Positions 1 through 62,582 of a stretch of 64,000 nucleotides of DNA are shown one piece after another. How positions within the stretch are numbered: position 1 is the stretch's first letter; each line of letters opens with the position of its first letter. The notes under the pieces are model-generated. The model was not told the DNA's origin. It saw only the letters and a program-made list of their open reading frames with translations, and did no database searches. Location: contig NC_089732.1 of the NCBI RefSeq assembly GCF_035083965.1, forward strand, positions 12,167,424-12,231,423, given 5' to 3'. The stretch is from Branchiostoma lanceolatum (taxonomy: Eukaryota; Chordata; Leptocardii; Amphioxiformes; Branchiostomatidae). A program made the translations under genes and the position numbers.

Positions 1-3000
1 AGTAGTTTCTGCATTCGATGGAGTCTGTGTAGTTTTCACGGTTGTTGGGGCATTTGTAGTTTTTACCGTGGTTGGAGTTCTTGTAGTTTTAACCGTAGTT
101 GGTGCATTTGTCGTTTTTGTTGTTGTTTTAGAGACTGTAGTTTTCATTGTGGATGGTGTCAACGTTGATAGAGGTTGAGTAGTTTCTGCATTCGATGGAG
201 TCTGTGTAGTTTTCACAGTTGTTGGGGCATTTGTAGTTTTTACTGTGGTTGGAGTTTTTGTAGCTTTTACTGTAGTTGGAATCCGTGTAGTTGCCATTTT
301 TGTTGTAGAGGCTGTAGTTTTCATTGTAGACGGTGTCTGTGTAGTCTTCACCGTCGAAAGGAATGGCGTAGTTCCCACCGCTGTTGTAGAAACTAGTGTA
401 GTTTCTCCTGTTGATAGATGTCGTGTAGTTTCTATTGGAGTTTGAGTCTGTGTAGTTATTGTTGTTGTTGTTGCAGAGGCTGTAGTTTTCATTGTGGATG
501 GTGTCTGTGTAGTCTTCACCGTTGATGGTGATGGTGAAGTTCCCACCGCTGTTGTAGAAACTAGTGCAGTTTTTCCTGTGGTCAGCGACACTGTAGTTTC
601 TCTTTTGGTTGGAGTTTGTGTCGTGTCCTCCAATTTCGTAGTTTCTCTAGTTTCGACCACTGTTGGAGGTTGGGTTGTTGCTGCTGTTGTTGTTGGAATC
701 TGTGTAGTTTTCATCGTTGTTAGAAGCTGCGTAGTTCCTTCTGTAGTTGGAGTATGTGTTGTTTTCGACGTTGTAAGGGGATGTGTAGTTTCTGCTGTAG
801 TTTGAGCTTGTGTAGTTTCCATCGTGGTTGCAGCTTTTGTAGTTTGCATCGTGGTTGGAATCCATGTCGTTCTTGTTGTTGTCGTTGTAGAAGCTGAAGC
901 TTCCATTGTGGCTTGTGCCTGCGTAGTCTTAGCCGTTGATAGACTTTGAGTAGTTTCTTCATCCGTAGGACCCTGTGTAGTTTTCATTGTGGTTGGGACA
1001 TTTGTAGTTTTTACCGTGGTTGGAATTCGTGTAGTTGGAATCCGTGTTGTTGCAGAGGGTGTGGTTTTCATTATGGATGGCGTCTGCGTAGTTTTCACCG
1101 TCGATAGGAATGGTGTAGTTCCCACCACTGCTGTAGAAACTAATGTAGTTTCTTCTGTTGATGGAGGCTGTGTTGTTTCTATTCGGGTCGGAGTTTGTGT
1201 AGTTATTTTGGTTGTTGTTGCAAAGGCTGTAGTTTTAAATGTTGATGGCGTCTGCGTAGTCCTCACCGGTGATGGCGATGGTGTAGTTCCCAACGCTGTT
1301 GTAGAAACTAGTGTAGTTTTTCCTGTGGTCAGCGACTCTGTAGTTTCTCTTGTGGTTGGAGTTTGTGTCGTGTCCTCCAATTTCGTAGTTTCTCTAGTTT
1401 CTACCACTGTTGGGGGTTGTGTAGTTTCTGATGTGGTTGGAATCTTTGTAGTTTTCATCGTTGTTAGAAGCTGCGTAGTTTCTTCTGTTGTTGGAGCCTG
1501 TGTTGTTTTCAACGTTGTTAGGGGATGTGTAGTTTCAGCAGTAGTTTGAGCTTGTGTAGTTTCCACCGTGGTTGCAGCTTTTGTGGTTTTCATCGTGGTT
1601 GGAATCCATGTCGTTCTTATTATTGTCGTTGTAGAAGCTGAAGTTTTCATTGTGGATGGTGCCTGCGTAGTCTTCGCCGTTGATAGAGTTTGAGTAGTTT
1701 CTTCATCCGTAGGACCCTGTCTAGTTTTCACGGTGGTTGGGGCATTTGTAGTTTTTACCGTGGTTGGAATTCGTGTAGTTGGAATCCGCGTTGTTGCAGA
1801 GGGTGTGGTTTTCATTATGGATGGCGTCTGCGTAGTTTTCACCGTCGATAGGAATGGTGTAGTTCCCGCCACTGCTGTAGAAACTAGGGTAGTTTCTTCT
1901 GTTGAGAGAGGCTTTGTAGTTTCTCTTCTGGTTGGAGTCTGTGTAGCTATTGTTGTTGTTGCAGAGGCTGTAGTTTGCATTGTGGACGGTGTCTGCGTAG
2001 TCCTCACCGTCGATAGGAATGGTGTAGTCCCCATCACTGTTGTAGAACCTAATTTAGTTTCTCCTGTTGATAGAGGCTGTGTAGTTTCTCTTTTGGTTGG
2101 ATTTTGTGTAGTGGCCTCCATTTTTGTGGTCTCTCTTGTTTCCATTACCGTTGGAGGCTGTGTGGTTTCAGCTGTTGTTAAAGCCTGTGTAGTTTTCACC
2201 GCTGTTCCAGGCTGTGTGGTTTCTGCTGTTGTTAAAGCCTGTGTAGTTGTCACCGTTGTTCCATGCTGTGAAGTTTCTGCTGAGGTTAATGCCTGTGTAG
2301 TTTTCACCGTTGTTCCAGGCTGTGAAGTTTCTGCTGTTGTTAAAGCCTCTGTAGTTTTCACCGTTGTTCCAGGCTGTGTGGTTTCTGCTGACGTTAAAGC
2401 CAGTGTAGTTTTCACCGTTGTTGAAGGCTGTGAAGTTTCTACTGTTGTTGAAGTCTTTGTAGTTTTTGGCGTTGTTAAGGGATGTGTGGTTATTGAAGGC
2501 TGCGTAGGTTTTGCTGTGGTTTGAGTCTGTGTAGGTTTCACCGTTGTTAGCATATGTGTCCTTTCTATCGTTGTTAGAGGCTGTGTACTTTTCGTGGTTG
2601 TTTGAGCATCTGTAGTTTTCATCGTTGGTAGAGACTGTGTTGCGTCCGTTGTGGTTGTAGCCTGTGTAGTTCCCACCGTGCTTGTGATATTTGTAGTTTT
2701 CACCGTAGTTGGAGCATTTGTAGACTCCGTGATTGGAGCATTTGTTGTTTTCAACGTGGTTGGAATCCGAGTAGTTGTTGTTGATGAGGCTGTAGTTTCC
2801 ATTGTAGATGGCACCTGTGTAGTTTCCACCGTCGATAGGAACGGCGTAGTCCCCACAACTGTTGTAGTTTCTGCTGTTGATTGAGATAGTGTGGTTTCTC
2901 TTCTGGTTGAAGTTTGTGTAGTGACCCCCGCTTCTGTAGTTTCTCTAGTTTCTACCACTGTTGGAGGCTGTGTAGTCTCTGCTGTAGTCGGAGACCGTGT

Positions 3001-4321
3001 GGTTGTCATCGTCGTCATCGGCTGTGTAGCTTCTACTGATGTTGGAATCTGTGTAGTTTCCACCGTTGTTAGAAGTTGTGTAGTTTCTTCTGTGGTTGGA
3101 GTCTGTGTTGATTCCATCGTCGTTAGAGACCGTGTAGTTTCTAACGTTGTTACAGGTGTTGTATATTCTGTTGGAATCGCTGTACTCCTTACTGTTGTTG
3201 GGAAGTCTGTAGTGTCCACCGTGGTTGGCGATTTTGTAGTTTTCACCGTGGTTGAAGGCTGAGTAGTTTTTACTGTGGATAATGACGGTGTAGTTTCTAA
3301 CACTGTTGACAGAAGCTGTGTGGGTTCTGCACTTGTTGGAGTCGGTGTAGATTTGACCGTTGTTACCATGTATGTAGATTCTTCTGTGGTTGGAGTTGGT
3401 GTAATTCTTGCTGTCGATTTAGATGCTGTAGTTGTAACCGTAGTTGAAGGCTCAGTAGGTATAACAGTGGATAGTGATTGTTCAGTTCCTAGCACTGTTG
3501 ATACAATGTGTGTAGATTCTTCTGAGTTTGGATTTGTACTTTCTGTCGATGTTAGAACACGTGTAGTTTCCACAGTGGTTGGAGTCGCTGTAGTTCGTGT
3601 CGTTGATTTAGAGGCTGTAGTTGCAACCGTAGTTGACGACTCTGTAGGTAAAACTGTAGATAGTGATGATGTAGTTCCTAGTATCGTTGATGCAATATGT
3701 GTAGATTCTTCTGCGGTTAGCGTTGTACTTTCTGTCGATGTTAGAACACGTGTAGTTTCCACAGTGGTTGGAGTCGCTGTAGTTCGTGTTGTTGATTTAG
3801 AGGCTGTAGTTGCAACCGTAGTTGACGACTCGGTAGGTAAAACTGTAGATAGTGATGATGTAGTTCCTAGTATCGTTGATGCAATATATGTAGATTCTTC
3901 TGCGGTTAGCGTTGTACTTTCTGTTGTTTCCACAGTGGTTGGAGTCGCTGTAGTTCGTGATGTTGATTTAGAAGCTGTAGTTGCAACCGTGGTTGAAGGC
4001 TCAGTAGGTATAATTGTGGATAGTGATGGTTCAGTTCCTAGCACTGTTGATGCAATAATTGTAGATTCTTCTGCGGTTGGAGTCTGTGTTGTTAGAGGCC
4101 GTGTAGATTCTTCTGTGGTTTCTGCCGATGTTAGAGCATCTGTAGTTTCCACAGTGGTTGGAATCAGTGTGGTTCTCACCGTGCTTGGAGACGCCGTAGT
4201 CTCAATTGTAGTTGGTAGCTGTGTCGTTTTCTCGGTGGAAGGTATTACAGTCGAAGGTAACCTTGTAGTTTCAATCATGGTTGGCGTCTCAGTTGTTTCA
4301 ACCGTAGTTGAAGATGGGAAT
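1..4321 (-). CDS. Exon 26 (partial): Thr/Val/Lys-rich mucin repeats, runs off the window
   Basis: On the minus strand one frame is open from the acceptor at 4322 to position 1 (1 base plus 1,440 codons). It reads as repeats such as PTTVKTTQTPSNAETT. The acceptor has a strong pyrimidine tract (cttcttttttccag) and supplies one base, which completes the Pro codon left by exon 25 (phase 2). Repeats are short, about 10-20 residues: between about 2150 and 2460 a 20-residue (60-bp) unit reading roughly ALTTAETTQPGTAVKTT is tandemly repeated. From 3300 to 4100 a longer unit carrying acidic and aliphatic residues is repeated two to three times. No donor or stop is seen, so the exon continues beyond the window. 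Several Val-rich plus-strand ORFs over this interval are antisense shadows of the Thr codons. Confidence 0.85.
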
Positions 4322-4613
4322 CTGGAAAAAAGAAGATGTAGCTTTTGCCTATCTTTTCCAGTTATTTCAGAGGCGAAAAAGTCCAGTTGTTTCACTACTT
4401 TACGCAAAACACAAAAGTACAGCAAAACCCGATTAGAGCTAGACATGCAAGCAATAAGATAGAATCTGCTTCAACTATATGCAATGATGTGTATGCAAAG
4501 GAAACAATAAGTTTCCACCAGATTGGCAAAAAATGAGATATCTACCCAGTATCGTAGCTACAAACAGCCACTTAGAGCTAGTAGAACGATAGAAATATGA
4601 AAATTGTACATAC

Positions 4614-6645
4614 GGAGTTGTTGAAGCCACGGTTGAGGTGGAACGAGTTGTGACCAGCTGTGTGGTGGGCTCGTAGACTGTTTGCTTTGCAGTCGTTAAC
4701 GCTGGCGTTGTCGTTACGGATGGAGTCGAAGTTTGCATCGTTGTAGAAGGTGCAGTCGATACCTGCACAGTAGATGATGGCTCTGTGGAAGAGGCTGACG
4801 TTGAAGTTGCTTCGGATGTGACTTCTGTAGTCAGAGTTGTCGTTTCGTCTTCGGTAGTTGGTTGAATTGTAGTCATACCTACAGTTGTAGATTGTCCTGT
4901 TGTTGTAGCAGGTTGATCTGTGAAGTAGTGAGTTGATAACTCTGATGTAGTCAGTTCTTCTATACTAAACTCCGTTGTGCCAATTTCCATACTTGATGGT
5001 TCTGTTATAATCAAGGTCGTTTGCTCTTCAGTTGTGGGTGGCGTTGCCGTGATTTCAAGGGTAGTGAGAGGAATTTCTGTTGTGGACAATGTACTTGGCA
5101 CTTCTACGGTGGATGGTGACTGAGTGGACGACCCTACAGTTGAAATTGCCTGGGGTATAGTCGTTGTTTGGGATGTTACGTCTGTAGTCAGTGTTGTGGT
5201 TTCGTCTTCGGTAGTTGGCTGAATTGTAGTCGGCTGAATTGTAGTCAGTCTTCTTGTAGTACGCTCCGTGGTCTCAAATTCGATAGTTGAGAGTGCGGTG
5301 CCTGTTAGAGTCGTTTGCTCTTCAGTTGTGTGCGACACTGTTGTAGTGAACGGATGTTCTGTTGTGGGTAATGTAGTTGACACCTGCGCTGTTGATGGTG
5401 ACTGTGTGGATGACCCTACAGTTGAAATTGCTTGGGGTATAGTCGTTGTTTGGGATTCTGTAGTCAGTGTTGTGGTTTCGCCTTCGGTAGTTGGCTGAAT
5501 TGTAGTCGGCTGAATTGTAGTCAGTCCTCTTGTAGTACGCTCCGTGGTCTCAAATTCGATAGTTGAGGGCTCAGTGTTAGTTAAAGTCGCTTGCTCTTCA
5601 GTTGTGTGTGGCACTGTTGTAGTGAACGGATGTTCTGTTGTGGGCAATGTAGTTGACACCTGCACAGTTGATGGTGATTGTGTGGATGACTCTAATGGTG
5701 TAGTAGTTTCTGCTGTCGTGTCAAATTCCGTAGTTGACGGTTCAGTGGTAGGCACAGCCGTTGTTTGCTCTTGAGTTGTGGATGGCAGTGTTGATGACTG
5801 TGGCGACGAAGCTGATGTTGAAGCTGCATGAGATGTTGGTTCTGTAGTCAACTCTGTCGTTATGTCAGCGATAGTTGATGGTTGTATTGTAGACATATCA
5901 ACAGTGGACTCATCTGTGAAAAATGGAGTTGATGTTTCTTTACTAGTGTAGGGCGTAGTTGAAAAAGCTGTTGTAGCAGAGGTTACAATGGTTGTCTGTA
6001 TGGTAGATTGTGACGGTGTCGATATGGTCATGAGGGTGGCGGTTCCTGGCAATGTTGTTTGTAAGCGTGTAGTAGTAGCGCCAGGTGTTGTGTGAGCTTG
6101 CGATGTAATTGCAGCAGTTGACGTTAGCTTTCTGGTGCTTTGTGTTGTATCAAGATTTGTGGAAGATATCGTCGGATGGGAACTAGTTGTCGACTCGGGC
6201 TCTTCAAAGAGTGTCTCTGGTAACTCTGAGGTTTTTGAGCGTGTGGTTGACGGTAAAGTGATCGTTTGTAAGGTAGAGCTGGGAGATGTGTTGATATCGT
6301 AAAGCATCGTGGTGGTGGCTTCTTGAGTAAATGTTGTTGAGAAAAGATGATTGGTGGATAAAGTGGATGGGAATGCAGTTGCTGTTAAAGATAAATCTGA
6401 TGAGGTAGCGACGCGTGTGTTTCCCTTCTGTGTTATGACCGATGTTGTGGTGAGTGGTGTTGATATGCCTGCTGTTGTATGCATTGGAGTACTTGATTGT
6501 ACTGTTGTATTTGCTGCTGTACATGTTGTTGGTGGATGATTTGTGGTGTATGAATCACTGGATGGAGGAGCTGGAGTAGAGGGTACAGAGGATGCATGTA
6601 CTGTTGATGATGGCTGTGCTGTTGTAGTCTTGATAGGAGTGGTTT
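4614..6645 (-). CDS. Exon 25: Thr/Ser-rich mucin exon
   Basis: The exon begins after 'catgtcag' in phase 1 (Glu, then TTPIKTTTAQPSST) and ends at CC|GTATGT in phase 2, matching exon 26. The length of 2,032 bp fits 2 + 3x676 + 2. It encodes about 677 residues of Thr/Ser/Pro/Glu-rich sequence without cysteine. A unit of about 92 residues (276 bp), marked by TTIQPTTIQPTTE and TTLPTTEHPFTTTV, is tandemly repeated between about 5150 and 5700. The rest is irregular PTS sequence. The residues before the acceptor (VYLFVDMS) are intronic, although they read open. The role is inferred to be an O-glycosylated stalk. Confidence 0.85.
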
Positions 6646-6890: not shown

Positions 6891-7130
6891 CCTCTGCTGT
6901 CGGTTGTATTGTTAACGTATCAGTCGTGATCTCCAACAAAGTGCTTTGTGTTGTAGTCATTTCGCGTGTAGTTTCTGACTCTGCGGTTGAAGTAACTTTG
7001 ATGGTCATTTCTGTGCTGGGTTCGGCTGTGGTCAGCTCGTGGGTCACTGCTGTTTGCTTTGTCGTAGTCGGCACGACTGTACCTGTGGAAGTCGTTGTAC
7101 CGTCTGTCGTTGGGTACATTACAGATGGTT
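6891..7130 (-). CDS. Exon 24: phase 1-1 PTS cassette exon
   Basis: This 240-bp exon (80 codons) has phase 1 at both ends. The acceptor follows a pyrimidine tract (gtttttcctcgcatgactacag). It encodes EPSVMYPTTDGTTTSTG and further Thr-rich residues and ends in TIQPTAEG at a GAGG|GTAAGT donor. The terminal QPT-x-EG signature marks it as a member of the cassette family also seen in exons 7-15, 17, 22 and 23. It could be skipped without a frameshift. Confidence 0.75.
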
Positions 7131-7327: not shown

Positions 7328-7522
7328 CTTCTGATGTTGGCTGTATCGTTGAAACGGCACTCGTAATGTCCGATACAACTCTTTGCGTTGTAGTCATTGG
7401 GTTCGACGTCGATGTTGTGGCCATGGTTACTTCAGTTGTCGCCGTTGTCGTTACATCATTTGATGTCTGAGTTGTAGTGACAGCCACACTGGTGGATTTC
7501 CCTCCTGTTGCAGTCACACGAT
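7328..7522 (-). CDS. Exon 23: phase 1-1 PTS cassette exon
   Basis: This 195-bp exon (65 codons) starts after 'atacataacag' with DRVTATGGKSTSVAVTTT. It ends STIQPTSEG at the GAAG|GTAAGATTC donor. It is Thr/Ala/Val-rich and cysteine-free. The PTSEG terminus places it in the same cassette family as its neighbours. Confidence 0.75.
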
Positions 7523-7868: not shown

Positions 7869-8272
7869 CTTCTGGTGTTGGCTGAACAGTTGAGCCATCT
7901 GTCGTTGGCTGAACAGTTGAGACATCTGTCGTTGGCTGTACTTTTGAGGCATCTGTCGTTGGCTGTACTATTGAAGCATCAGTCGTTGGCTGTACTTTTG
8001 AGGCATCTGTTGTTGGCTGCACTGTTGAGGCATCAGATGTTGGTTGTACTATTGAGACATCTGTCGTTGTCTGTACTTTTGAGACATCTGTCGTGGGCTG
8101 TACTGTTGAGATATCTGTCGTTGGCTGTATTGTTGAGACATCTGTCGTTGGCTGTATTGTTGAAGCGGCACTTGTTGTAGCGGAGGTGGTTGACGATGTA
8201 TGGTATGGTGTTGGTGACACTGATGTCACTACTGGTGCCAGGCACTGGGCATTGTCGTATGCCTGCGTGCAG
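7869..8272 (-). CDS. Exon 22: end of EGF domain plus 10-residue tandem repeats
   Basis: The exon begins one base into a codon (phase 2) after 'ccttactttcag'. The first residues, C-T-Q-A-Y-D-N-A-Q-C, supply the fifth and sixth cysteines of the EGF domain started in exon 21. After a short Ser/Pro linker comes a clean tandem array of a 10-residue unit, VQPTTDASK and variants (30 bp), about eleven copies, ending STVQPTPEG at GAAG|GTAAATG (phase 1). The length of 404 bp equals 1 + 3x134 + 1. The alternation of Asp, Lys and hydrophobic residues makes this segment less purely mucin-like than the giant exons. Confidence 0.8.
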
Positions 8273-8786: not shown

Positions 8787-8856
8787 TCGCATATTCTGGA
8801 TGAATCCGTGGCCTGACATTCCATGTTTACCAGACAGTAATCGGAAGCACAGAGCT
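8787..8856 (-). CDS. Exon 21: first four cysteines of a six-cysteine EGF domain
   Basis: This is a small 70-bp exon, phase 1 to phase 2, with acceptor 'gtttctattccag' and donor GA|GTAAGT. It encodes E-L-C-A-S-D-Y-C then C and C before the splice. Joined to exon 22 the spacing is C-x4-C-x5-C-x8-C-x1-C-x8-C, the canonical EGF pattern. The EGF follows directly after SEA domain 2, the SEA-EGF order common in membrane mucins. The short ORF read through this exon on the minus strand extends into introns and is not a separate gene. Confidence 0.8.
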
Positions 8857-9292: not shown

Positions 9293-9482
9293 CTGTTGTG
9301 TTGACTTCCATGTTAACTCCGATAGACTGAATGAATGCTTGCTGTAGGGCCTCTGCTGTGAGACTAGCGGCTGAGTCAGCCGTGATTGTCGTCTCAACAA
9401 TGAGACTGCCACTGGTAAGAGACGTTACAATCACGGAGTAGATGTTGTCTGCGACAGAACTTTTTGAGTAGACGTCGAGGAT
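9293..9482 (-). CDS. Exon 20: SEA domain 2, C-terminal half
   Basis: This 190-bp exon, phase 0 to 1, lies between 'ccctttacactgtag' and ACAG|GTGAGTT. It encodes ILDVYSKSSVADNIYSVIV, then TSLTSGSLIVETTITADSA and a helix LTAEALQQAFIQSIGVNMEV. The pattern of a hydrophobic strand, then G-S-L-I-V in a second strand, followed by a helix matches SEA domains, in which autoproteolysis occurs at G|S-[VIL]-V-V. It is paralogous to exon 6 (near-identical YSVIVTS and GSLIVET). SEA domains in mucins yield a non-covalently joined two-chain protein. Cleavage here is inferred, not shown. Confidence 0.82.
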
Positions 9483-9865: not shown

Positions 9866-9978
9866 CAGTGCTGTCATGTTTTCTTTGGTAGCTGTAAAGT
9901 CAGCAGATCTGCAGTCAGCCAGGGAATCTCGGTACGCCAGGTCGGTGAACCTGGCACTCTGTGAAAAGCCGCTGGAAA
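9866..9978 (-). CDS. Exon 19: SEA domain 2, N-terminal half
   Basis: This 113-bp exon, phase 1 to 0, begins after 'tttccatttcag' or its equivalent ctgaaat acceptor and ends CTG|GTTAGT. It encodes VSSGFSQSARFTDLAYRDSL, then ADCRSADFTATKENMTAL. The F-x2-LAYRDSLADCRSADF segment fits the first strand and helix of SEA domains. No start codon precedes it, so simple ORF calling does not show it. It is about 85-90 per cent identical to exon 5. Confidence 0.82.
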
Positions 9979-10514: not shown

Positions 10515-13500
10515 CTAGCGCGCATGTCGTTCCGTCTCCTTCGAATCCTTGTTTACATTGACAAGTTCCGTCCGCAAGCATTTCCGCATATTTGTCACAT
10601 CCATCATTGCAATCTCCCAACTGAGTGGTCGTCCCAATTGTTCTTACAGTTGTAGACGGCTCTGTTGTAACTTGTTGGTTGGTCAGCGTTGTTTGTACTG
10701 TTCTTATGGTCGATGTTGTTGGCTCTGCCGTTGTCGATTGCACTGTGGTGCCTTTAAAAGTAGTCGCAGACTGAGCTGTCGTAGAATGGACAGAGGATGT
10801 TGCCTGCGTCGGCAAGACTGATGTTGCTCTTGCAGGAAATGTCGTTTGTTCTTCTGTGGTCATCTCCGTCGTGGGTTGTTCTGTCGTTGTAAAAGGCGTG
10901 GTGTCCTCGTCTGTTGTTACTGATGTTGTTTGCTCGCCTGTAGTTAAATGTGGGGTTGTAGTAACAAACTCACTCGTGTACTGTGGCGTTCTTTTAAGCG
11001 GCGTTGTTTTCACATCAGTCATTACTGATGTTGTAGTTAGCACTGAACTTGCTGAAAATGTGGTCGGTTCTCCCCTAGTCACCTTCGTCGTTTGCTCGTC
11101 TGCAGTTAAATGTGGGGTTGTAGTCATTGCTGCACTTGTGGGTTGTTCTGTCGTTGTAAGGCGTGTGGTCTTCAAATCTGTTGTTACTGATGTTGTAGTC
11201 GGCAATGAAGGAAGTGTGGTTGGTTCTCCACTAGTCACCTCCGTAGTTTCCATGTCTGTAGTTAAATGTAGGGCTGTAGTAGCGGCTGCACTTGTAGGTT
11301 TTTCTGTCGTTGTAAGGCGTTGAGTTTTCTCACCTGTTGTAACTGATGTTGATGTAAGCTGTGTAGATCTTTCAGCAGTCGTTTGCTCTGCAATAGTCGG
11401 CTGGACTACTATGCTTGTTGTGGTAGCCATAGGTTCCACAGTTGAGAATGAGGGAGTCGACACGGGGGTAGAGGTTGATTCGAGTGTTGGCGAATATGAA
11501 CCTGCTAGAAATGTGGTAGATTCTTGCTCTATTATTACTGTAGTTTCCCCGCCTGTAGTTAAAGGTAGAACTTCAGTTCCCTCATTTGTTGTTGCTAATA
11601 TTGGAGTTAGCTGTGTAGTTCTTTCATCAGTTGTTACTGGCATTGTAGCTGTGCTTGCAGATGTAGTTGCAGCCTGCACTGTTGTGCGAGGTTCGGTTGT
11701 CAATTGTCTGGTTGTTACTGACTTTGTTGACAACAATGGCGAAGTGTTTTCCGGAAATGTGGTCGATGTTCCTCCAGCCATCTCCGTAGTTGCTTCGATG
11801 GGCATTTCTGTAGTTTGTTGACGTGTTGTTGCTAATCCTGTTGTCACATGAGTAGGTTCGACTGCAGTTGTTTTATACGTTGTTTTAGCCATAGTGCTCG
11901 TTCTTGTTGTAGGAGTGGTCAATGTGGTACTTTCGGGAAATTCGGTCGGTATTTCCGTAGACATCTCCGTCGTTGCTTCGGTGGTCATCGCTGAACTTGG
12001 TTGGGTTGTCGAGGCTGAAGTTGATGTAACCTGAGTATATTGGTCTGTAGTTGTTTTATACGTTGTTGGCGGTTTGTACGTAGTGCTCTTTCTTGCAGTA
12101 GAAGTGTAGAAGTTATCTGCAGTCGTCGATGTAGTACCTTCCGGGAATGTAGTCGGCATTTCTGTAGACATCTCCGTCGTTGCTTCGCTGGCCATCGCTG
12201 TAGTTGGTTGGTTTGTTGTGGCCAAAGTTGTGGTCACCTGAGTAGATTCGGCTGCAGTCGTTTCCCCTGCAGTCGTTGATAATATTGTTGACGTCGAAGA
12301 AGTAGTGATATGTGGAGTTTTAAATGTTGTTGCCGGTATATCAGTGCTTGGTAAACTCATAGTGCTCTCACTTGTTATAGAAGTGGTATGCTCTGCAGTC
12401 GTCGATATGGTTCTTTCCGACGATGTCGTCGGTGTTTCTGTAGATATCTTCGTACTAGCTTCGGTGAACACTGCTGTGCTTGGTTGGGTTGCTGTTGCTG
12501 AGGTTGTTATTTGCGTAGATTCGCCAGTAGTTGTTTGATATACGGTCGTCGATGATGCAGTTGGTGTTGATGAACTAGTGCTGTGCGCTGTTGTATGCAT
12601 CGTTGACGGTTTTCCAGTGGTGTGGAGAGTACTTGACAAAGCTGAGGTGCTCTGCTTTGTTGTAGGAGGTCCTTCTGTGCTGGTCTGTGCCGTTGTCTCA
12701 TCAGGGACTGTCGTCTCTGCAAGAGTAGATGCCAGCGTACTTTGCTCCATTGTAGCCGTCACTGTTCGAAATGTGGTTCGTTGTGAGGTTTGGGGGTTTG
12801 TACCTGGTTGGGCGGTGGTTTGTGATGTTGTTGCTGCCAAAAATGTACTGCTTGGTGGCGTGAAAAGTCCAGTTGTTCCTTTATGTGTTGCGGGCGAGGT
12901 TGTGGTGAGTTGAGTAGATTTGTCTACAGTGGTATCCTCTACAGCCGTCGATGAAATAGTTCCTGGCAAAGTGGTTAATGTCTCTGTAGACATCTCCGTC
13001 ATTGCTTCCGTGGCCATCGCTAAACTTGGCTGGTTTGTCGTGGCCAAAGTTGTTGTCACTTGAGTAGATTGGTCTGCAGTTGTTTTCTCTGCAGTCGTCG
13101 ACGGTATAGGCAACGTCGAGGAAGTAGTAATGTGCTCTATTTTATATGTTGTTGACGGTTTACCAGTGGTGTAAGAAGTACTTGCTGAACCCATGGTGCT
13201 CTTTCTTGGTGTATGAGTTGTATGTTCTGCAGACGTGAATATAGTGCTTTCCGGCAATGTGGTCGATGTTTCTGTAGATGCCTCCATAGATGCTTCAGTG
13301 GCCATCGCTGTACTTCGTTGGTTTGTTGTTACTGTTGTTGCTTTAGCGGAAGTTGCTGTACTTGATTTACTTGTTGTTGATACGGTCGTTATATGCGTAG
13401 ATTCGTCAGCAGTTGTTTGCTCAGCAGTCGTCAATGGAACAGTTGAGGTTATGAAGGTTGTGGTACGCGCTGTTGTAGATGCTATTGACGGCTTTTCAGT

Positions 13501-16500
13501 GGTATAGGGCGTACTCGGTACTACTGTCGTGCTCTTCATTGTTGTAGGTAGTCCTACTGTACTAGTCTGTATCGTTGTTGCAACAGGGACTGTTGTCTTC
13601 TCGGGCGTAGATGCTAGCGTACTTTGCTCCATTGTAGCCGGCACTGTTCGAAATGTGGTTCGTTGTGTAGTTATCGGGACGGTACTTTCTTGCACAGTGG
13701 TTTGTGACTTGAGCGTGGTAAATGCCGGAGAAGTCACAAAGTATTTAGGTGTTGTTGCTGTCGAAAAAGTACTGCTGGATGACGGGGGAAGGCTAATTGT
13801 TTTCTTGTCTGTTGTTAGCGAGGTCGTGGTTTGTTGAGTAGATTTGTCTGCAGTGGTTTCCTCTGCTGCCGTCGATGCAGTACTTTTTGGAAATGTAGTC
13901 GGGTTTTTTGTAGACATTTCCGTAGTTGCTTTGGTGGTCTTTGCTGAACTTGCTTGGTCTGTTGTGGCCAAAGCTGATGTAACTTCAGTTGATTTCTCTG
14001 TAGTATGATCTGAAGTTGTCGATGGTATAGTTGACGTTGAAGAGGTAGTGAAATGCGTTGATTTAAATGTTGTTGGCGATTCATTTGTGGTGCTCTTTCT
14101 GGTTGTAAGAGTAGTATGCCCGAGCTCTGCAGTCGTCAATGTAGTACTTTTCGGAAATGTTGTCGATGTCGGTGTCTTTGTAGACATCTCCGTCGTTGCT
14201 TCTGTGGCCATCGCTGTACTTGGTTGCTTTGTTGTGGTCAAAGTTGTTGTTACTTGAGTAGATTGGTCTGCAGTTGTTTTCTCTACAGCAGTTGATTGTA
14301 AAGTTGTATATGTTGTTGACGGTTTATCAGTGGTGTAAGAAGTACTTGAAAAACCCGTGGTGCTCTTTCTCGAAGTATGAGTGGTATGGTCTGCAGCCGT
14401 TGATACAGTTGTTTCCGGCAATGTGGTCGGTGTTTTTGTAGATGCCTCCGTAGTTGCTTCAGTGTTCATTGCTGTACTTGGTTTACTTATTGTTGATAAG
14501 GTTGTTATCTGCGTAGATTCGTCAGCAGTTGTTTGCTCAGTAGTCGTCAATGGACCAGTTGAGGACAAGAGAGTAGTGGTACGCCCTGTTGTGTGTATTG
14601 TTGACGGCTTTTCCGTGGTGTAGGGGGTAGTTGGTACGACTGTCGTGCTCTTCATTGTTGTAGGAGATCCTTCAGTACTGGTCTGTACCGTTGTCTCATC
14701 ATGGACTGTGGTCTCTTTAAGAGTAGATGTCAGCTTACTTTGCTCCATTGTAGCCGGCACTGTTCGAAATGTGGTTCGTTGTGTAGTTTCAGGGACTGTA
14801 CTTTCTTGTACGGTTGTTTGTGACTTGAGCGTGGTAAATGACGGAGAGGTGACCCAGGATGTAGGTGTTGATGCTGTCGAAAACGTAGTGCTTGATGACG
14901 TGGTAGGGCCAGTTGTTACCTGGTGTGTCGTGGGCGACATTGTGGTTAGTTGAGTAGATTTGTCTGAAGTGGTATGCTTTTCAATTGTCGATGAAGTGCT
15001 TTCCGGAAATGTAGTCGGTTTTTCTGTAGACTTTTCAGTTGTTGCTTTAGTGGTCTTTGCTGAACTTTGTTGGTGTGTTGTGGGCAAAGTTGTTCTCACC
15101 TCAGTAGATTTCTCTGCAGTTGCAGTTGTCGATGGCAAAGTTGATTTGTCCGCAGTCGTTTGCTCTGCAGCCGTCGATGTAGTACTTTCCGGAAATGTGG
15201 TCGGTGTTTTTGTAGACATCTGCGTCGTTGCTTCTGTGGTCATCGCTGTACTTGGTTGCTTTGCTGTGGTCAAAGTTGTTGTCAACAGAGTAGAGTGGTC
15301 TGCAGTTGTTTTCCCTGCAGTAGTTGATTGTAAAATTTTAAATGTTGTTGACGGTTTATCAGTGGTGTAAGAAGTACTTGCTAAACCCGTGGTGCTCTTT
15401 CTTTGTGTATGAGTGGTATGGTCTGCAGTCGTTGATGTAGTACCTCCCGGTAATGTGGTTGGTGTTTCTGTACTTGCTTCGGTTGACATTGCTGTACTTG
15501 GTTGGGCTGTTATCTCTAGGGTTGTTCTCTGTGTAGATCCGCCTACAGTTGTGTGATCTACAGTCGTCGATGAAGCAGTAGATGTTGAGAATGTTGTGGT
15601 GTGCGATGTTGTAGGTATCGTTGACGGTTTTGGAGTGGTGTCGGAACTGCTTGACAAAATTGAAGTACTCTGCTGTGTTGTAAGATATCCTTCTGTGCTG
15701 GTCTGTACCGTTGTCTTACCAGGGGCTGTGATATGATCAAGAGTAGACGTCAGCGTACTTGGCTCCATTGTAGCCGGCACTGTGAGGAAGGTGGTTCGCT
15801 GTGCAGTTTTCGGGGCGGTAATTGCTTGGGAGGTGGTTTCTGTCTCGGGCGTGGTAGACACCAGAGAGGAGACTAAGGATGTAGATGAAGTTGTTTTCAT
15901 TGGAGATGTGCTGCCGGATGAAGTGGTACGGTCGGTGGTTTCTCCGAGTGTTGTGGGGGATGTTGTTGTCAGTCGGGTAGATCTGTCTGCAGTTGTATGC
16001 TCTGCAGTCGTCAATGTAGTACTTTCCAGAAATGTGGTCGATGTGGTCATATCTGTAGCTGCGTCGGTGGTTGTGACTATCCCTGCCATCGTCGATGTAA
16101 TACTCTCCAGAGACCCGGTCGATTTTCCTGTGGTCATCTCCGTAGTTCCTTCGTCGAACCCCACCGTACTTGGCTGGTTTGACGTAGCTAAAGCTGTTGT
16201 CACCTGTGTAGATTGATCTTTTGTTGTTTGCTCCGCTGGAGTTGACGTAGTACTTTCCAGAGACTGTGTCGATTTTCCTGTGGTCATCGCCATAGTTGCT
16301 TCGGTGGACGACACCGTACTTGGTTGGTTTGTTGTAGCTGAAGTTGTTGTCACCTGAGTAGATTCCCCTACAGTTGTATACTCCGCTGTCGTTGATGTAG
16401 TACTTTTCAAAGACCTAGTCGATGATCCTGTGGTCATCTCCGTAGTTGCCTCGGTGGTGGACAATGTACTGGGGTGGCTTGTTGCAGCTAGTGTTGTTGT

Positions 16501-19326: not shown

Positions 19327-19644
19327 CTTCTGTTGTCGGCTGCATTGTTGAAGGAAGAGTTGTTCCTTTTACTGTAGTGGTTGGACGTGTATCTACACCG
19401 GTGTGTGAGGACGTTGGTTCCACGACCGTAGAAGCGTCAATGGTCGTCGCTGTACTTGGCTGTCCTGTTGTGCTCAGGGTTGTTGTTATCTGTGTCGATT
19501 TGTCTCCTGTTGTGTGCAGTGGTGTTGAAGCTTCTGCAGTTGAAGTTTCAGTCTGTACGGTGGTTGGCGGCTGTGTTGTAGAGACTGGTGTCGAGGTTGC
19601 TTGAGATATTGTTTTTGCTGTAGTCAGCGCTGTCGTGTCATCAC
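19327..19644 (-). CDS. Exon 17: phase 1-1 cassette exon, paralogue of exon 15
   Basis: This 318-bp exon (106 codons) starts after 'gtcaactacag' with GDDTTALTTAKTISQATST and ends TMQPTTEG at GAAG|GTTAGAG. I checked the frame base by base and it has no stop. It contains no early ATG, so it is invisible to ORF calling on the minus strand. Its sequence and position (immediately before a giant exon) match exon 15, showing that cassette plus giant exon were duplicated together. Confidence 0.78.
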
Positions 19645-40967: not shown

Positions 40968-41168
40968 CTTCTGTTGTTGGATGCATTGTTGCAGGAGCAG
41001 TCGTGATCTCCGAATCTGTGCTTTCAATTGCAGTCATTAGGCGTGTAGTGTCACTGGATTTAGAGGACGTTGGTACTTTGGCCGTAGTTCCTTCTATGGT
41101 CGTCACTGTACTGGTTTGGCTTGTTATATCTTCGACGGAAGTAGTTTGCTCCGGTGCCATCGGTAATA
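40968..41168 (-). CDS. Exon 7: phase 1-1 cassette exon following SEA domain 1
   Basis: This 201-bp exon (67 codons) starts after 'ctctactttctcaacag' with VLPMAPEQTTSVEDITSQT and ends ATMHPTTEG at GAAG|GTAAAAA. It is the first member of the PTTEG cassette series. Confidence 0.75.
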
Positions 41169-42266: not shown

Positions 42267-42379
42267 CAGTGCTGTCATATTTTCTTTGGTAGCTTCAAAG
42301 TCTGCAGATCTGCAGTCAGCCAGGGAATCTCGGTAGACCAGGTCGGTGAATCTGGTGCGCTGTACAAAGCCGCTGGAAA
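42267..42379 (-). CDS. Exon 5: SEA domain 1, N-terminal half
   Basis: This 113-bp exon, phase 1 to 0, starts after 'aaatccctttcag' and ends CTG|GTTAGT. It encodes VSSGFVQRTRFTDLVYRDSL, then ADCRSADFEATKENMTAL. The fit to the first half of SEA domains is the same as for exon 19. The single Cys is conserved in both copies. Confidence 0.82.
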
Positions 42380-42829: not shown

Positions 42830-43640
42830 CGAGCGTGCATGTCGTTCCGTCTCCTTCGAATCCTTGTTTACATTGACAAGTTCCGTCTGACAGCATTTCT
42901 GCATATTTGTCACAGCCTCCATTACAACCTTCCAACTGAGTGGTCGTCCCAGTTGTTCTTACAGTTGTAAATGAAAACGGCTCTGTTGTAACTTGCTGGT
43001 TGCTCAGTGTTGGTCTTGTTGTTGTAAGGGCTGATGTTATTTTCCCTGCCGTTGTCGACTGCACTGTGGTGCCTTTAAAATCAGTCGTAGCTGTCCTTGG
43101 ATACATAGAGGACGTTGCCTGTGTCGCCAAGACTGATGCTGTACTTGCTGTAGTTGATGATGGGGTTGTAATCTCAACGTCACTCGTGTACTGTGGTGTT
43201 GTAGTCAGAGGCGTGCTTTTCACATCTGTTGTTGTTGCTGGTGTTGTAGTCGGCATTGTACTTGCCGGAAGTGTGGTCGGTTCTCTATTAGTCACTTCCG
43301 TCGTCTCCTCGTCCGTGGTTAAATGTAAGGCTGTAGTCGTTGCTTCCCAATTGAGGTGTTCTGTCGATGCAGGGCGTGTTGTTTCCTTTGTGGTCTCCGA
43401 TTCTGTGCTTTGCATTGTAGTCTTTGTGTGAGAAGTTTCACTAATTTTGGAAAAGGGCGTTGGTGGCAAAGTTGTACTTCCTTCGATGGTCGTTGCTGTG
43501 CTTGGTTGGTTTGTTGTTGTTGTTGAAGTCGTTGTTGTCGCCAGCTGTGTAGGTTTGACTGCAGTTGTATGGTCTTCACCCGTTGATGGGATTATTGTAG
43601 AAGTAGATGAAGTCACGGTTTCGGCAGCAGTAGATGGTGT
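42830..43640 (-). CDS. Exon 4: PTS-rich exon ending in a five-cysteine EGF-like motif
   Basis: This 811-bp exon, phase 0 to 1, starts after 'tgtgttctcaacgcag' with TPSTAAETVTSSTSTIIPST and ends CTCG|GTGAGAG. Most of it is Thr-rich. The last ~35 residues are C-x3-C-x11-C-x-C-x10-C with KQGFEGDGTTC, the end signature of EGF domains of the 'GDG' type, but one cysteine is missing. The 3' part is paralogous to the end of exon 18 (DKYAEML and DGTCQCKQGFEGDGTTC shared). It precedes SEA domain 1. Confidence 0.83.
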
Positions 43641-43889
43641 CTGCGTTGAGAACACAATACTAGAAGTATCCTATTGAGACAAGCCAACAAATGTAAATAA
43701 CTTAAGAGATTTTACATAAAAAGGTAGACTTTGTAGATAAAGATGCATGATGAAAGAACAAATGAAATCCCATCACCCTGAATCGGCCACATTACGTATT
43801 CAGGTATAACCCATTTAAAAAGAAGTGCAAACCATGCAGCTTAACATTGTGCCAGTTATTTAGTCATGTTATTGGTTATCATGTAGACA

Positions 43890-47500: not shown

Positions 47501-50500
47501 TGAATAATGTAGAAGCTGGTGGCAGTTTCGATGTGATGTGAGTTGAGGAAGGAACAGTCGTGGTGTCTCTAGTGCTTGCAGAGTGAGATGTTGAAGGGGA
47601 TTCTGTTTTGATTATTGTTGTTGGCTCCATCGTCGGCGATACAGTAGTTGGAGTTTTTGTTGTGAATAATGTGGAAACTGGTGGTAGTTTCGATGTTATA
47701 TGAGTTGAGGAGGGAACAGTTGTGGTGTCTTTGGTGCTTGTAGATATGGAAGTAGCGACAGTGGCGGTGCTGGAGGTTTTTAGGGTAGAGTCAAGAGTAC
47801 TTGGCTGATAAGATGTTTCCGACAATGTTGTTGTGTCAAAGGAAGAAGTCTGTATGGATGGTGATCCTTCTGTACTGGTCTGTTCGAGAAGTGTGGTGCT
47901 TTCAAGAGCAGATGTCAGTGTGCTTTGCTCTGTTGTTACTTGCATTGTAGGAAATTTGGTTTCCTGCGTACTTGACTGATGAGTCGTTTCAAGCAGCGTG
48001 GACCTGACTGTCGATGGATCTTTCGTGCTGGTTTGCACCGTAGAATCATCACGGACCGTGGTCCTTCCAAGGGTAGATGCCAACGTGCTTTGCTCCGTTG
48101 TTACCAGCTTTGTAGAAAACCTGGTTTCTTGCGTACTTGACTGATGGGTCGTTTCCAACAGTGCGGTGGTGTCAATGGTGGACCTGATTGTTGACTGTTC
48201 TTCTGTGCTTGTTTGCACCGTTGTTTCATCAGAGGCCATTGTCTCATAGAGAGTAGATGCCAGTGTGCTTTGCTCAGATATTGTAGAAAACCAGCTTCCT
48301 TCCGTGTTTAACTGGTGCGTCGCTTCCGACATTTTGGTTGTATCAATGGTTGATCTGATTGTCGACGGTTCTTCTGCTGTGCTTGTGTGCACTGCTGTCT
48401 GATCAGTGACTGTAGTCTCTCCTTGGAAAGATGTCCTTTGTTCTGTTCCTACTCCAATTGTAGAAAACCAGTTTTCTCGTGTGTTTGATTGATGAGTCGT
48501 TTCAAACATTGTGGTTTTGTCGAGGGTAGACCTCGCGGTTGACGGTTCTTCTGTGCTGGTTTGCACCGTCGTATAATCAGAGAATGTGTTCTCTTCAACA
48601 GTAGATGATGGCGTGCTTTGCTCTATGGTTACTGGCATTGTAGGAAACCTGGTTTCTTGCGTACTTGACTGATGAGTCGTTTCCAATTGTGTGGTTGTAT
48701 CAGGGGTGGATCTGACCGTCGACGGTTCTTCTGTGCTGGTTTGCATCGTTGTCTTATCAGGGACTGTTGTATCTTCCAAAGTAGATGTCAGTGTGTTTTT
48801 CTCTGTTGTTATTGCCATTGTAGAAAACCCGGTTTCTTCTGTATTTGATTGATGAGTCGTATCGGATAGTGTAGTTGTGGCAAGGGTTGACCTGATGGTT
48901 GACGGTTTTTCTGTGCTTGTGCGCATCGTTGTCGGATCCGTGACTGTAGTCTCTCCTTGGGAAGATGTCAAAATATTTTGTTCTGTTGTTACTGACATTG
49001 TAGAAAGCCTGGTTTCTTGCGTATTTGACGGATGAGTCGTTTCCAATAGTGTGGTTGTATCAGTGGTGGATCTGATTGTCGACGGTTCTTTGGTGCTAGT
49101 TTGCATTGCTGTCTCATCGGAGACTGTCGTGTCTTCAAGAGTAGATGTTGACGGGCTTTCCTCTGTTGACACTTGCATTGTGGAAAACGTTCTTCCTTGC
49201 GTACTTGACTGAGGAGTTGTTTTCAGCAGTGCGGTGGTGTCATGTGTAGACTTGATTGTCAGCGCTTCTTCTGTGCTTGTGTGCACAGTTGACTGGTCAG
49301 GGACTGTTGTCTCTTCAAGAGTAGATGTCAGCGTGCTTTGCTCTGTTGTTACTTGCATTGTTGGAAACCTGGTTTCTTGCGTACTTAATCGATGGGTCGT
49401 TTCCAACATTGAGGTGGTGCCAAGGGTTGGTCTAATTGTCGATGGTTCACCTGTGCTGCTTTGCATATCAGACACTGTGGTGTCCTTAGGAGTAGACGTG
49501 CTTTGGTCCGTTGTTTCATGCATTGTAGAAAATCTGGTTTCTTGTGTACTTGGCTGATGTGTCGTTTCTAACATTATAGTGGAATCATGGGTAGATCTAA
49601 TTGTCGACGGCTCTTTTGTGCTTGTATGAACCGTTGTCTGATCGATGACTGTAGTCTCTCCTTGGGAAGATGCCATCGTACTGTGTTCTGTTCTTACTCC
49701 CATTGTAGAAAACCTGGCTTCTTGCGTGCTTGGCTGATAAGAGGTTTCCAACAGTGTAGTTGTGTCAAAAGTGGATCTGATTGTCGACGGTTCTTCCGTG
49801 CTGGTCTGCAACGTTGTCTCGTCAAAGAATGTAGATGCCAGAGTATCTTGCTCTGTGGTTACCTGCATTGTAGGAAACCTGGTTTCTTGCGTGTTTTGCT
49901 GGTGAGTCATTTCCAAACGTGTGGTCGTGTCAACGTTGGACCTGATTGTCGATGGTTCTTCTGTACTGGTTTCCACCGTTGTGTCATCAGGTACGGTGGT
50001 CTCTTTCATAGTAGATGTCAATGTAATTTTCTCTGTTGCTTCCAGCATTGTAGAAACCGTCCTTCCTTGCGTACTTGATTGATGAGTCGTTTCCGGCATT
50101 GCGGTGGTGGCTATGCTGGACCTGATTGATGACGGTTCTTCTGTGTTCGTGTGTACCGTTGTCTGATCAGTGACTGTTGTCTCTTCAAGAGTAGATACCA
50201 TCGTGCTTTGTTCCGTTGCTACCTGCATTGTAGAAAACGTTCTTCCTTGCGTACTTGGCTGATGAGTCGTTTCCAACAATGTGGTGGTGTCAAGTGTGGA
50301 CCTGATTGTCGACGGTTCTTCTGTGCTGGTGTACACCGTTGTCTGATCAGGAACTGTTGTCTCCTTAAGAATAGATGACAACGTGCTTTGGTCCGTTGTT
50401 ACCTGCATTGTAGAAAACCCGGTTTCTTGCGTACTTGGCCGAAGAGTCGTTTTTGACATTGTGGTGGTGTCAAAAGTGGACCTGATTGTCAACGGTTCTT

Positions 50501-52262
50501 TTGTGCTGGTCAGTACGGTTTTCTCATCAATGACTGTGGCCTCTTCAACAGTAGATGCCAGCGAACCTCGTTCTGTGGTTACCTGAATTGTAGGAAACCT
50601 AGTTTCTTGCGTACTTGACTGGTGAGTCGTTTCTAACAGTGTGGTTGTGTCAAGGTTTGACCTGATTGTCGACGGTTCTTTTGTGCTGGTGTGCACCGTT
50701 GTATCTTCAGGGAATGTGGTCTCTTTAAGAGTAGACGTCAATGTGATTTTCTCTGTTGCTCTTGGCATTGTAGAAATCCTGGTTTGAGTCGTACTTGACT
50801 GATGGGTCGTATCCAACAGTGTGGTGGTGTCATATGTGAACCCGGTTGTCGACGGTTCTTCTGTACTGGTGTGCACTGTTGTTTGATCGGTGCCTGTAGA
50901 CTCTTCTTGGGAATATGTCAACGTACTTTGTTCTGTTCTTACTCCCATTGTAGAAAACCTGTTATCCTGCGTATTTGACTGATGAGTCGTTTCCATCAGT
51001 GTGCTGATGTCAGAGGTGGAACTGATTGTCGAGGGTTCTTCCGTGCTAATCTGTACCGTTGACTCATCACGGACTGTGGCCTTTTCAGCAGTAGATGCCA
51101 GAGTGCTTTGTTCTGTAGTTACTTGCATTGTAGGAAACCTGGTTCCTTGCGTACTTGACTGATGAGTTGTTTCTAGCAGTGTGGTTGTTTCAAGGGTGGA
51201 ACTGATAGTAGACGGTTCATATGTGCTTGTTTGCATCGTTGTCTGATCAGAGACTGTATTCTCTTCAACAGTAGATACTGTCGTACTTTGCTCCGGTGTT
51301 ACCTGCATTGTAGGAAACTTGGTTTCTTGCGTACTTGACTGATGAGTTGTTTCTAACAGTGTTGTTGTGTCGAGGTTTGACCTGAGTGTCGACGGTTCTT
51401 CTGTACTAGTTTGCATTGTTGTCTCATCAGTTACTGTTGACTCTTCAAAGATGGATGTCAGGGTGCTTTCCTCCTGTGTTACTTGCATAGTAGAAAACCT
51501 GGTTTCTTGCGTGCTTGACTGATGAGTCGTTTCCAACGGTGTTGTGGTGTCAAGGGTGGACCCGATTGTCGTTGTTTCTGGCGCAGTTGTTGATGGAATA
51601 GTGACAACAGCTGACGTTTGGGGTGTTGTATGTAGTTCTGTTGTTTGCTCCAACGTTTGCAGTATTGTGGCTACTTTTGTAGGAGATTGAGTGGCGGTTG
51701 TTTCATGAGAAGAAACAGTGGTCGTTTGTGTAGAGGATGACAAATCAGGTCGATTGCTGCTGTGCAGACTTGAGCTCAATGATTTTGTGGTGTCAACAGT
51801 TGATGATGGTGTCTTTGAAGTGTCTTCATAGGTAAGAGTTGTTTGCTCTGTTGTAGAAGCTGAGGCAGATGTGGGAAATGGAACTGTTGTGTGCATGGTC
51901 GTTTGTGTCGTGGCTTGTGAGGTTAAAGCTGAAGAAGCAGTTCTTTCGTTGGTGGGATTAAACATGGTGGGCCCTTCCGTGGTTACTTCAGTAGAGGAGG
52001 TAAGATCTTTACCAGTTGTTATGGCTGTTGTTAAAGGTATTGACGCTGACGATTGATATTGTGCATGCGTGTTAGACATGTCCGACGTTTGTGAAGTTGG
52101 GTATGAAATTGTATTTTCTTTAGCTGCAGTGATTGTTGCCTGTGCAGTTTGACTTGAAGAGGTCTCAGATGTTGTCTCTCTAGTTGTCTCCTCAACTAGT
52201 GTGGTTGGGACGTTTGTGGTGTCTGATGGTGTCGTTGTTTCTGATAAACTAGCTGTAGATAT
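44580..52262 (-). CDS. Exon 3: 7.7-kb giant mucin exon with three repeat families
   Basis: This 7,683-bp exon (2,561 codons) is phase 0-0. It starts after 'tcctcctcttcacag' (ISTASLSETTTPSDTT) and ends ACC|GTAAGT. After ~220 irregular PTS residues comes a 60-residue (180-bp) repeat with TTLLETTHQSSTQETRF and TVQTSTEEPSTIRST, about 22 copies (51.5-47.8 kb). Next are about five copies of a 54-residue (162-bp) repeat with TTTVPSSTHITSKLPP (47.7-47.0 kb). After a linker, a 39-residue (117-bp) repeat with LTTYQTSTEEPTTEHVSTMF follows (46.4-44.7 kb). The composition is Thr/Ser/Pro/Glu-rich without Cys. The open frame continues upstream into the intron to an ATG at 52349 with a hydrophobic stretch; I prefer the acceptor because its phase matches exon 2. 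Confidence 0.88.
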
Positions 52263-52966: not shown

Positions 52967-53718
52967 CTCTTTTGTGGTTTTTGTGCTGGCACTTGTTGAG
53001 GCTTCTCTGGTAGGCCCAAGCGTTGGTATCATAGTGGCACCATCAGTAGACTGTCGTGTCGTCTCAAAGTTGGTGGTAGTTTCTTCATCTGTAGTAGCTC
53101 CGGTAGTTGACGCCACAGTCTGCTCGAATATTGTAGGCATTCCTGGGGTTTCCATTGTTGTAGTTTCCGTTGTATCTCCTATATTTACAGCCGTGAGTCC
53201 CACAGAATATGTCTCAGTTTGTCTCTCTGACGTTATAACATCTTCTGTCGTGGATGAACTAGTTCTGTGGCCTGTATCTGTCACCACACCAGTACTTTGC
53301 GAACTGGTTGTCTCAAACGTCCTCTCTTCACCTTCAAACACTGTCGACATATCATTCGTCGTTTGCGACGATGTTTGTCCGATACTTTCTGTAGAAAATG
53401 ATGACATTGTATGTTCTACAATATCAGAGGTAGTTAGTTCACTCTCTTTAACTACTGTAAGTTCACTAGTATGACTAGAAGGATATATTACATCCGTACT
53501 GCTTGGCAGACGGTCTTGTGTATCTGTTGTGTCTCTTGTTAATGATTCCGTCGATGCCTCCGTTGGCGACGACAGAGTTTCTATTCCTATTGTTGTAGGC
53601 ACGATATCTGTGCTTTCTTCTTCTAATTCGTCGTTTCTTCTAAATCTGTGATGACTTTGTAACTCTTGTTTCATTGTCAGTTCTGTGTTGTGACTTTGTC
53701 CAGACTGACTGGTGCGAC
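52967..53718 (-). CDS. Exon 2: N-terminal region of the mucin with furin-like site
   Basis: This 752-bp exon, phase 1 to 0, starts after 'cttcttcaatattttag' with GRTSQSGQSHNTELTMKQEL and ends AAAGAG|GTATGG. About 25 residues in is H-H-R-F-R-R-N-D, a fit to the furin consensus R-x-R/K-R, followed by an acidic stretch (ELEEEST). The rest is Ser/Thr-rich but less repetitive and richer in Glu, Ile and Val than the later exons. It directly follows the signal-peptide exon, so this is the N-terminus of the mature protein. Confidence 0.82.
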
Positions 53719-62200: not shown

Positions 62201-62512
62201 ACTGCCATGTGTGCCGCAGTACACGAAATGTACGAAACAGCAACTAGTACTTGTCCACACATCTACACAACATATGACCTACTAACTCCATACGAAAGTC
62301 ACTGAGATATGTCCTAGAATTTAGATGACGATACAATGACGAAGGGAAAAAAGACCTAAACATGGATATAAATTTCACAAACTCAATGGTAGAAAAGAAC
62401 CAAGTATACAACATTCGTAAACCCTGACAAAAGGCGTAAGCTGCCGCGTAATATATAAGAAAACAAACGTTATCGAAAAGATTACACAAAGAAGTTAGAA
62501 GAATTGTCTTAC

Positions 62513-62582
62513 CTTCAAACAGTCGCTGTACTTGCCATACGATTAATGCAAAAACTACAAACGCGGCTGTCCAACGCAACAT
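62513..62582 (-). CDS. Exon 1: signal-peptide exon of the mucin
   Basis: The coding part is 70 bp, phase 0 to 1, ending TTTGAAG|GTAAGAC. It encodes MLRWTAAFVVFALIVWQVQR and LFE before the split codon. A basic n-region and a hydrophobic core (TAAFVVFALIVW) fit a secretory signal. The ATG at 62582 is the first in this frame: the upstream in-frame stretch starts only with non-ATG codons and encodes no recognisable protein. The base at -3 is G, acceptable for initiation. Phase 1 fits exon 2. The 8.8-kb distance to exon 2 makes this link the least certain of the model. Confidence 0.7.

Follow-up and report, generated by a model that had tools for sequence, protein, structure and literature searches.

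SEA-containing mucins have been described in several families. Muc13 has SEA, EGF and proline-, threonine- and serine-rich (PTS) parts, and in the chicken its PTS part is split over several near-identical repeat exons; according to the same 2006 paper, no mucin other than MUC16 was then known to carry more than one SEA domain (PMC1552070). In MUC3, MUC12 and MUC17 the SEA domain sits between the mucin domain and the membrane span, and a SEA domain of the MUC17 type unfolds under force (PMC6705488). MUC16 (CA125) is given as ~22,152 residues long; ~56 SEA domains are predicted in it, within a stretch where a 156-residue unit recurs ~60 times, and neither of the two sites proposed for SEA cleavage was cut on testing (PMC4456727). 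IMPG1 and IMPG2, with predicted masses of 89 and 138 kDa, are heavily glycosylated proteins with two SEA domains, of which one is reported to be cut and only SEA-2 has the cleavage motif; the self-cleavage pattern is stated as GSxxV, where x is V or I (PMC9478142). The cut falls in the loop that connects strand 2 to strand 3, and the halves remain together until force or another disruptive event parts them (PMC6954182). The subject of the present analysis is a candidate gene of this type in the lancelet Branchiostoma lanceolatum, located in a stretch of 64,000 nucleotides (contig NC_089732.1, positions 12,167,424 to 12,231,423; hereafter the window, in whose positions all coordinates are given).

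The gene shares features with each of these systems. As in MUC3/MUC12/MUC17 and MUC13, a PTS block is followed by a SEA domain of putatively self-cleaving type, and the apparent order EGF-SEA-EGF in the second cassette of this gene (unit A) is reminiscent of MUC3 and MUC17. Unlike in MUC3/12/17, both SEA cassettes are internal, the PTS sequence continues past each of them and no membrane span comes after them in the window. The giant size, the long N-terminal part with its predicted glycosylation and the presence of several SEA domains recall MUC16, whereas there are only two SEA domains here, thousands of residues apart, both with the motif GSLIV. The pair of SEA domains in a protein predicted to be heavily glycosylated is also a likeness to IMPG1 and IMPG2, which are far smaller. 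Exons 9-11 resemble the repeat exons of chicken Muc13, but here small repeat exons are mixed with giant single exons. SEA mucins, giant mucins and two-SEA proteins are already known (MUC16, MUC17, IMPG1/2, Muc13), and the gene is a variant within the SEA mucins; it does not represent a new type of system. No description of two GS-type SEA cassettes inside a PTS rod, or of this gene, was found in the open-licence literature, as far as its excerpts extend. The placement among the largest known proteins in an earlier, first-pass annotation is fair, although the figure given for MUC16 is larger.

Taken together, the features of the locus make it probable that the minus strand carries one gene, whose product would be a SEA-type mucin, secreted or bound to the membrane, of no fewer than ~14,900 residues. 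The locus contains an open frame across its spliced exons, PTS blocks that run for thousands of residues and two internal EGF-SEA cassettes, and its coding frame bears the mark of selection. Open reading frames (ORFs) of 5,596, 2,877, 2,620 and at least 1,490 codons, measured from stop to stop, lie on this strand, and each of them is about half Ser, Thr and Pro. Exons were chained by a programme that combined generic splice weights with codon weights trained on four large ORFs of the window, a procedure whose circularity affects coding content and leaves splice phase untouched. The start codon had to lie within ~61.4-63.0 kb in runs with intron penalties of 10, 14 and 18, and within ~61.4-63.2 kb in a run with a penalty of 6. 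At a penalty of 14 the chain consists of 26 exons that encode 14,746 residues uninterrupted by a stop. The merged model used below has 26 exons (62582..1, minus strand), 44,682 nt and 14,894 residues with no stop, and its frame is open at the left window edge, so that this length is a minimum. Specifically, 24 of its 26 exons are identical to those of the penalty-14 chain, which bears out the first-pass annotation that 26 exons join without a stop. The two differ in exon 23 (7522-7328), which has an acceptor of -0.2, was skipped at penalties 10, 14 and 18 and is taken from the penalty-6 run, and in exon 25, which at penalties 6 and 14 ends at 4883 and is followed by an extra 20-nt exon; its end at 4614 in the merged model was chosen to reproduce the 2,032 bp of the first-pass annotation. 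The chained model depends on the penalty setting: 35, 27 and 23 exons were obtained at penalties of 6, 10 and 18, respectively, and the two lower settings add small doubtful exons.

The predicted chain is 34% Thr and 13% Ser (S+T 47%, P 5.8%), with 7,030 Ser/Thr in total, and its PTS repeats have periods of 9, 39, 50, 60 and 340 residues. Such Ser/Thr/Pro-rich, repeated sequence is characteristic of a mucin, and its combination with SEA domains places the protein among the SEA-type mucins. As far as the window extends, the chain does not look like a gel-forming mucin, a class marked by VWD domains and a C-terminal cystine knot: only 20 cysteines were counted in 14,894 residues, and no VWD domain matched in the stretches of the window scanned against Pfam (exons 1-6, 16, 18-21, 24-26 and a small part of 22). 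The predicted order of domains is signal peptide, PTS, EGF-SEA (unit B), PTS, EGF-SEA-EGF (unit A), PTS. In unit B, exon 4 (42830..43670) passes from PTS sequence into EGF-1 (~42926-42830), and the two halves of the SEA domain are encoded by exons 5 (42267..42379) and 6 (41684..41876), the latter with GSLIV. In unit A, EGF-1 (~10617-10515) ends exon 18 (10515..18902), a PTS exon of 8,388 bp, and the SEA domain is split in the same way between exons 19 (9866..9978) and 20 (9293..9482, again with GSLIV). Both SEA domains claimed in the first-pass annotation exceed the Pfam cut-off, the spliced EGF-SEA units scoring 32.5 and 32.7 bits against PF01390 (cut-off 26.4), and GSLIV occurs exactly twice in the 14,894 residues, once per SEA. 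In a separate report, a SEA domain of an amphioxus Chr2 gene is described as the one whose structure is altered most by single-nucleotide polymorphisms (PMC8994340).

The three EGF-like units of the first-pass annotation are supported as putative units, though it overstated the case for them. The two EGF-1 units have five cysteines each and score 22.8 and 21.1 bits against EGF_3, under the cut-off of 28.5, and the first half of each SEA domain carries one further cysteine. EGF-2, divided between exon 21 (8787..8856) and the start of exon 22 (7869..8272, which continues as PTS with a 9-residue repeat), has six cysteines in the canonical spacing C-x4-C-x5-C-x8-C-x-C-x8-C; it was recognized by this spacing alone, with no Pfam match, and no confident counterpart was found in unit B. 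The three strongest hydrophobic stretches of the chain are the signal peptide and two SEA strands, and within the window neither SEA has a membrane span after it, the C-terminus lying beyond the edge.

The remaining exons encode PTS sequence. After a candidate exon 1 (62513..62582), which holds a start codon and the putative signal peptide MLRWTAAFVVFALIVWQV, come exon 2 (52967..53718) and exon 3 (44580..52262; 7,683 bp), whose repeat periods are 60/180 and 39/78/117 residues. A series of small exons, all of phase 1-1, follows unit B: exons 7 (40968..41168), 8 (40280..40618), 9 (39844..40068), 10 (39414..39638), 11 (38984..39208), 12 (38506..38727), 13 (37993..38202), 14 (37356..37598; weak donor, 0.9) and 15 (36709..36999). 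Exons 9-11 are tandem copies (225 bp in exon 9), the acceptors of exons 10 and 11 being weak (0.5 each). Exon 16 (19868..36445; 16,578 bp), with 50-residue and 340-residue repeats, is here on record as a coding exon of 16.6 kb, which is close to the largest coding exon known. At ~30.8-27.8 kb within it, successive copies of the 340-residue repeat share 87-94% of their DNA sequence and are flanked on either side by looser copies, a pattern that may reflect recent homogenisation of the central part of the array. Exon 17 (19327..19644, phase 1-1) is a paralogue of exon 15, and exons 15-16 and 17-18 form paralogous blocks. Exons 23 (7328..7522; phase 1-1, so placed that the frame survives its skipping), 24 (6891..7130; phase 1-1), 25 (4614..6645; phase 1-2, with a doubtful 3′ end) and 26 (1..4321, open at the window edge) complete the model. 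No Pfam domain was found in the large exons 3, 18, 25 and 26 at E 0.001, and a match of ACAS_N in exon 16 (33.9 bits, above the cut-off of 27, but with no single stretch that passes) was rejected as a chance product of low complexity.

The best chain score is 12,927 on the minus strand, against 32 on the plus strand and 47-93 in shuffled sequence (five of five shuffles), a contrast that indicates signal but is not an unbiased test, the control weights having been trained on minus-strand ORFs. Exon 16 has no stop in its coding frame and 295 and 163 stops in the other two. The first-pass annotation held that all 25 junction phases agree. When splice sites were chosen blind to phase, agreement was found at 19 of the 25 junctions (binomial p 1.6e-5 against 1/3), more than the mean of 13.0 after random re-pairing of phases (p 0.001); in both wider zones it was 18 of 25, the junctions that disagree in the 150-base zone being 3, 4, 7, 9, 17, 18 and 25. 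These zones were themselves placed around the exon ends and frames of the model. Agreement at all 25 junctions is therefore partly a product of site choice, because the zones follow the frames of the model and many exons are tandem copies; with a period of 430 bp between copies, many junctions are not independent. The agreement does exceed chance, and the phase argument holds, yet it is weaker and less decisive than had been claimed.

Better evidence for one coding frame comes, in our reading of the aligned copies, from indels in threes and from ratios of nonsynonymous to synonymous substitution (dN/dS) that are lowest in frame for the EGF, for the exon encoding the first half of SEA and for the repeat of exon 16. 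Between paralogous exons 11 of 11 indels are multiples of three, compared with 11 of 43 in paired introns. For EGF+SEA between units A and B dN/dS is 0.33 (dS 0.31). For the EGF the ratio is 0.20 in frame versus 2.83 and 1.02 out of frame, for the exon 5/19 pair 0.41 versus 1.70 and 1.02, and for the exon-16 repeat of 340 residues, over 11 windows, 0.46 versus 1.20 and 0.83; in all nine pairs computed the in-frame value lies between 0.18 and 0.57. The EGF and SEA exons of the two units are 85-90% identical, introns 4/18 73% and introns 5/19 55%. Similarity between the units runs ~220 bp beyond the SEA donor into the intron (74%) and then stops (41683-41467, 9292-9065); EGF-2, seen only in unit A, lies past this breakpoint. 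The introns between EGF-1 and SEA share a stretch that includes GTTCGAATCCC, similar to a tRNA B box (42577-42587 and 10194-10204, minus strand), with two matches in the window, a number reached in 10 of 100 shuffles; the stretch is perhaps an old tRNA-derived short interspersed element that predates the duplication of the cassette.

Proteins related to the gene were sought among 5.8 billion sequences, with candidates limited by length. The EGF-SEA-EGF query (223 aa) gave one match among 809 candidates, the 140-residue B. lanceolatum gene model Hypp7040, which over its residues 1-54 shows 98% identity to exon 6. Its remainder is most similar to exons 11 and 12 (78% each), read in a frame other than that of the merged model, with other tandem copies fitting less well, and the residue at its join is that expected of the exon 11/12 junction in the frame of Hypp7040, which fits the end of exon 11 and the start of exon 12. 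Hypp7040 would thus capture only a fragment of the locus, and we judge its departure in frame to be a prediction error. Residues 1-1200 of exon 16 had no match at 1e-10 among 1,040 candidates scored, and the SEA half none at 0.1 among 169 candidates of 3,575-11,375 aa. A sequence search of the PDB returned no match at E 1. Rfam gave no match at gathering scores and ARAGORN no gene in the window; among viral contigs 54 stretches fit a pattern and none was confirmed.

A number of observations weigh against a single long gene with self-cleaving SEA domains. Donors are weak at exons 3, 5, 14 and 25 and acceptors at exons 4, 10, 11 and 23; the SEA and EGF-2 exons of unit A are lost at a penalty of 18, at which the SEA of unit B is retained; and the exon 25-26 junction is doubtful, the donor at 4614 not being the best in its zone in the phase-blind choice; 13,454 residues remain if the join is incorrect. 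Hypp7040 quits the SEA exon ~27 bases before the model donor and then reads mucin exons in another frame. The evidence for selection has its own weak points: repeat units whose length is itself a multiple of three (e.g. 27 bp) promote in-frame indels even if selection plays no part, the alignments of introns 14/16 and 6/20 are poor in places, exons 9-11 have ratios of 0.36-0.44 in the coding frame and 0.41-0.66 in the others, which does not tell the frames apart, and introns 9/10 are as identical (93.2%) as exons 9/10 (91.1%). A two-sequence profile searched against the PDB up to E 10 returned an amphiregulin EGF (2.1) and a viral envelope protein (8.9) but no SEA domain. GSLIV fits GSxxV except that its first x is L where V or I is given (PMC9478142), and DSVLV, a SEA site of MUC16 predicted in like manner, proved uncut on testing (PMC4456727). 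The window does not reach the C-terminus or any membrane anchor, and the 5′ start is ambiguous, exon 1 not being unique.

One gene is the best reading of these features, to be preferred to several. It is unlikely, though worth weighing, that the locus is a head-to-tail array of two or three mucin genes arisen by tandem duplication and that the chain merges neighbours, each PTS-EGF-SEA part resembling a complete mucin ectodomain. Units A and B are indeed paralogous cassettes, as are the blocks of exons 15-16 and 17-18; downstream of the start of exon 2 there are 13 hydrophobic ATG starts, 11 of them in introns 2, 3, 6, 11, 15, 21, 24 and 25, and one of these (52349) is in frame with exon 3; internal starts are therefore conceivable. 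Against separate genes, intron 1 measures 8,794 bp whereas every later intron is at most 909 bp, which leaves scant room for promoters, and neither SEA is followed by a membrane span. Polyadenylation near 36.7 or 19.7 kb, which would have pointed to transcripts ending inside the window, finds no support in introns 15-17, from which AATAAA and ATTAAA, the only two hexamers sought, are absent; they are present in introns 1, 2, 6, 12, 14 and 21. The single long minus-strand mucin frame of the first-pass annotation is upheld, with no gene boundary visible. A decaying or non-expressed pseudogene array, its frame open by chance, is very improbable. In its favour, Hypp7040 reads part of the array in another frame; on the other side stand the absence of in-frame stops over 14,894 codons, when a random change of 1% would by computation yield ~6 stops in exon 16 alone, the indels in threes between paralogous exons and the low in-frame dN/dS of every pair computed.

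The 5′ end is the point at which a rival comes closest: with somewhat less than an even chance, a genuine gene begins within exon 2 (at 53785 or 53809) or uses other first exons, and the signal-peptide exon at 62.5 kb is foreign to it. Candidate starts at 63745, 62582, 53809 and 53785 score 203.9, 201.9, 200.3 and 199.9, within 4 bits of each other; unconfined chaining prefers 63745, and the penalty-10 run picked 62116. The in-frame N-terminus at 53785 is likewise hydrophobic, but this stretch coincides in part with the T-rich tract that belongs to the exon-2 acceptor. Among 98 ATGs with an ORF of at least 16 codons located 5′ of exon 2, six are hydrophobic, and only one of these (62582) unites a signal-like start with a phase-1 donor of at least 5 (6.7); on the plus strand, as a control, 71 ATGs included six hydrophobic ones and none with such a donor. 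The signal-peptide exon of the first-pass annotation is accordingly plausible, although rival starts score alike. Near the predicted N-terminus, in exon 2 (~53.6 kb), there is an RFRR motif, which we take to be a minimal furin-type site, and intron 1 contains a 127-bp minisatellite of 9.2 copies (57977-59148).

If the locus is read as a single SEA mucin gene, the following course can be proposed. The signal peptide would route the protein to the secretory pathway, where many of the 7,030 Ser/Thr could be O-glycosylated, stiffening the chain to a length in the order of micrometres, as estimated from the rise per residue. Each SEA domain would fold and cut itself, at G3178|S3179 and G12435|S12436, with the halves staying bound, and the mature chain would then consist of three segments (3,178, 9,257 and at least 2,459 residues) held to one another at two non-covalent couplings, which shear could part, freeing the outer segments. 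The gene itself may have grown by duplication of a PTS-EGF-SEA cassette together with tandem duplication of exons and repeats. A more speculative idea, which we hold to be possible but rather less likely than its opposite, is that of a serial breakaway mucin, in which the two SEA couplings in the PTS rod let a coat of the lancelet surface or feeding net be shed stepwise under shear; in both units the odd cysteines of EGF-1 and SEA may be paired, locking the outer half of the coupling to its EGF. In lancelets the endostyle secretes the mucus nets used in filter-feeding (PMC6109156), and such a net could be one place for the protein. The locus offers a concrete lancelet gene for the study of SEA mucin origin before the vertebrates, and a design that can be tested, with serial self-cleaving couplings within one mucin. 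Hypp7040, a small fragment partly in another frame, suggests that such genes may escape annotation.

Finally, long microsatellites are located within two of the introns, of AT in intron 13 (37656-37765) and of AC in intron 3 (43887-43983).

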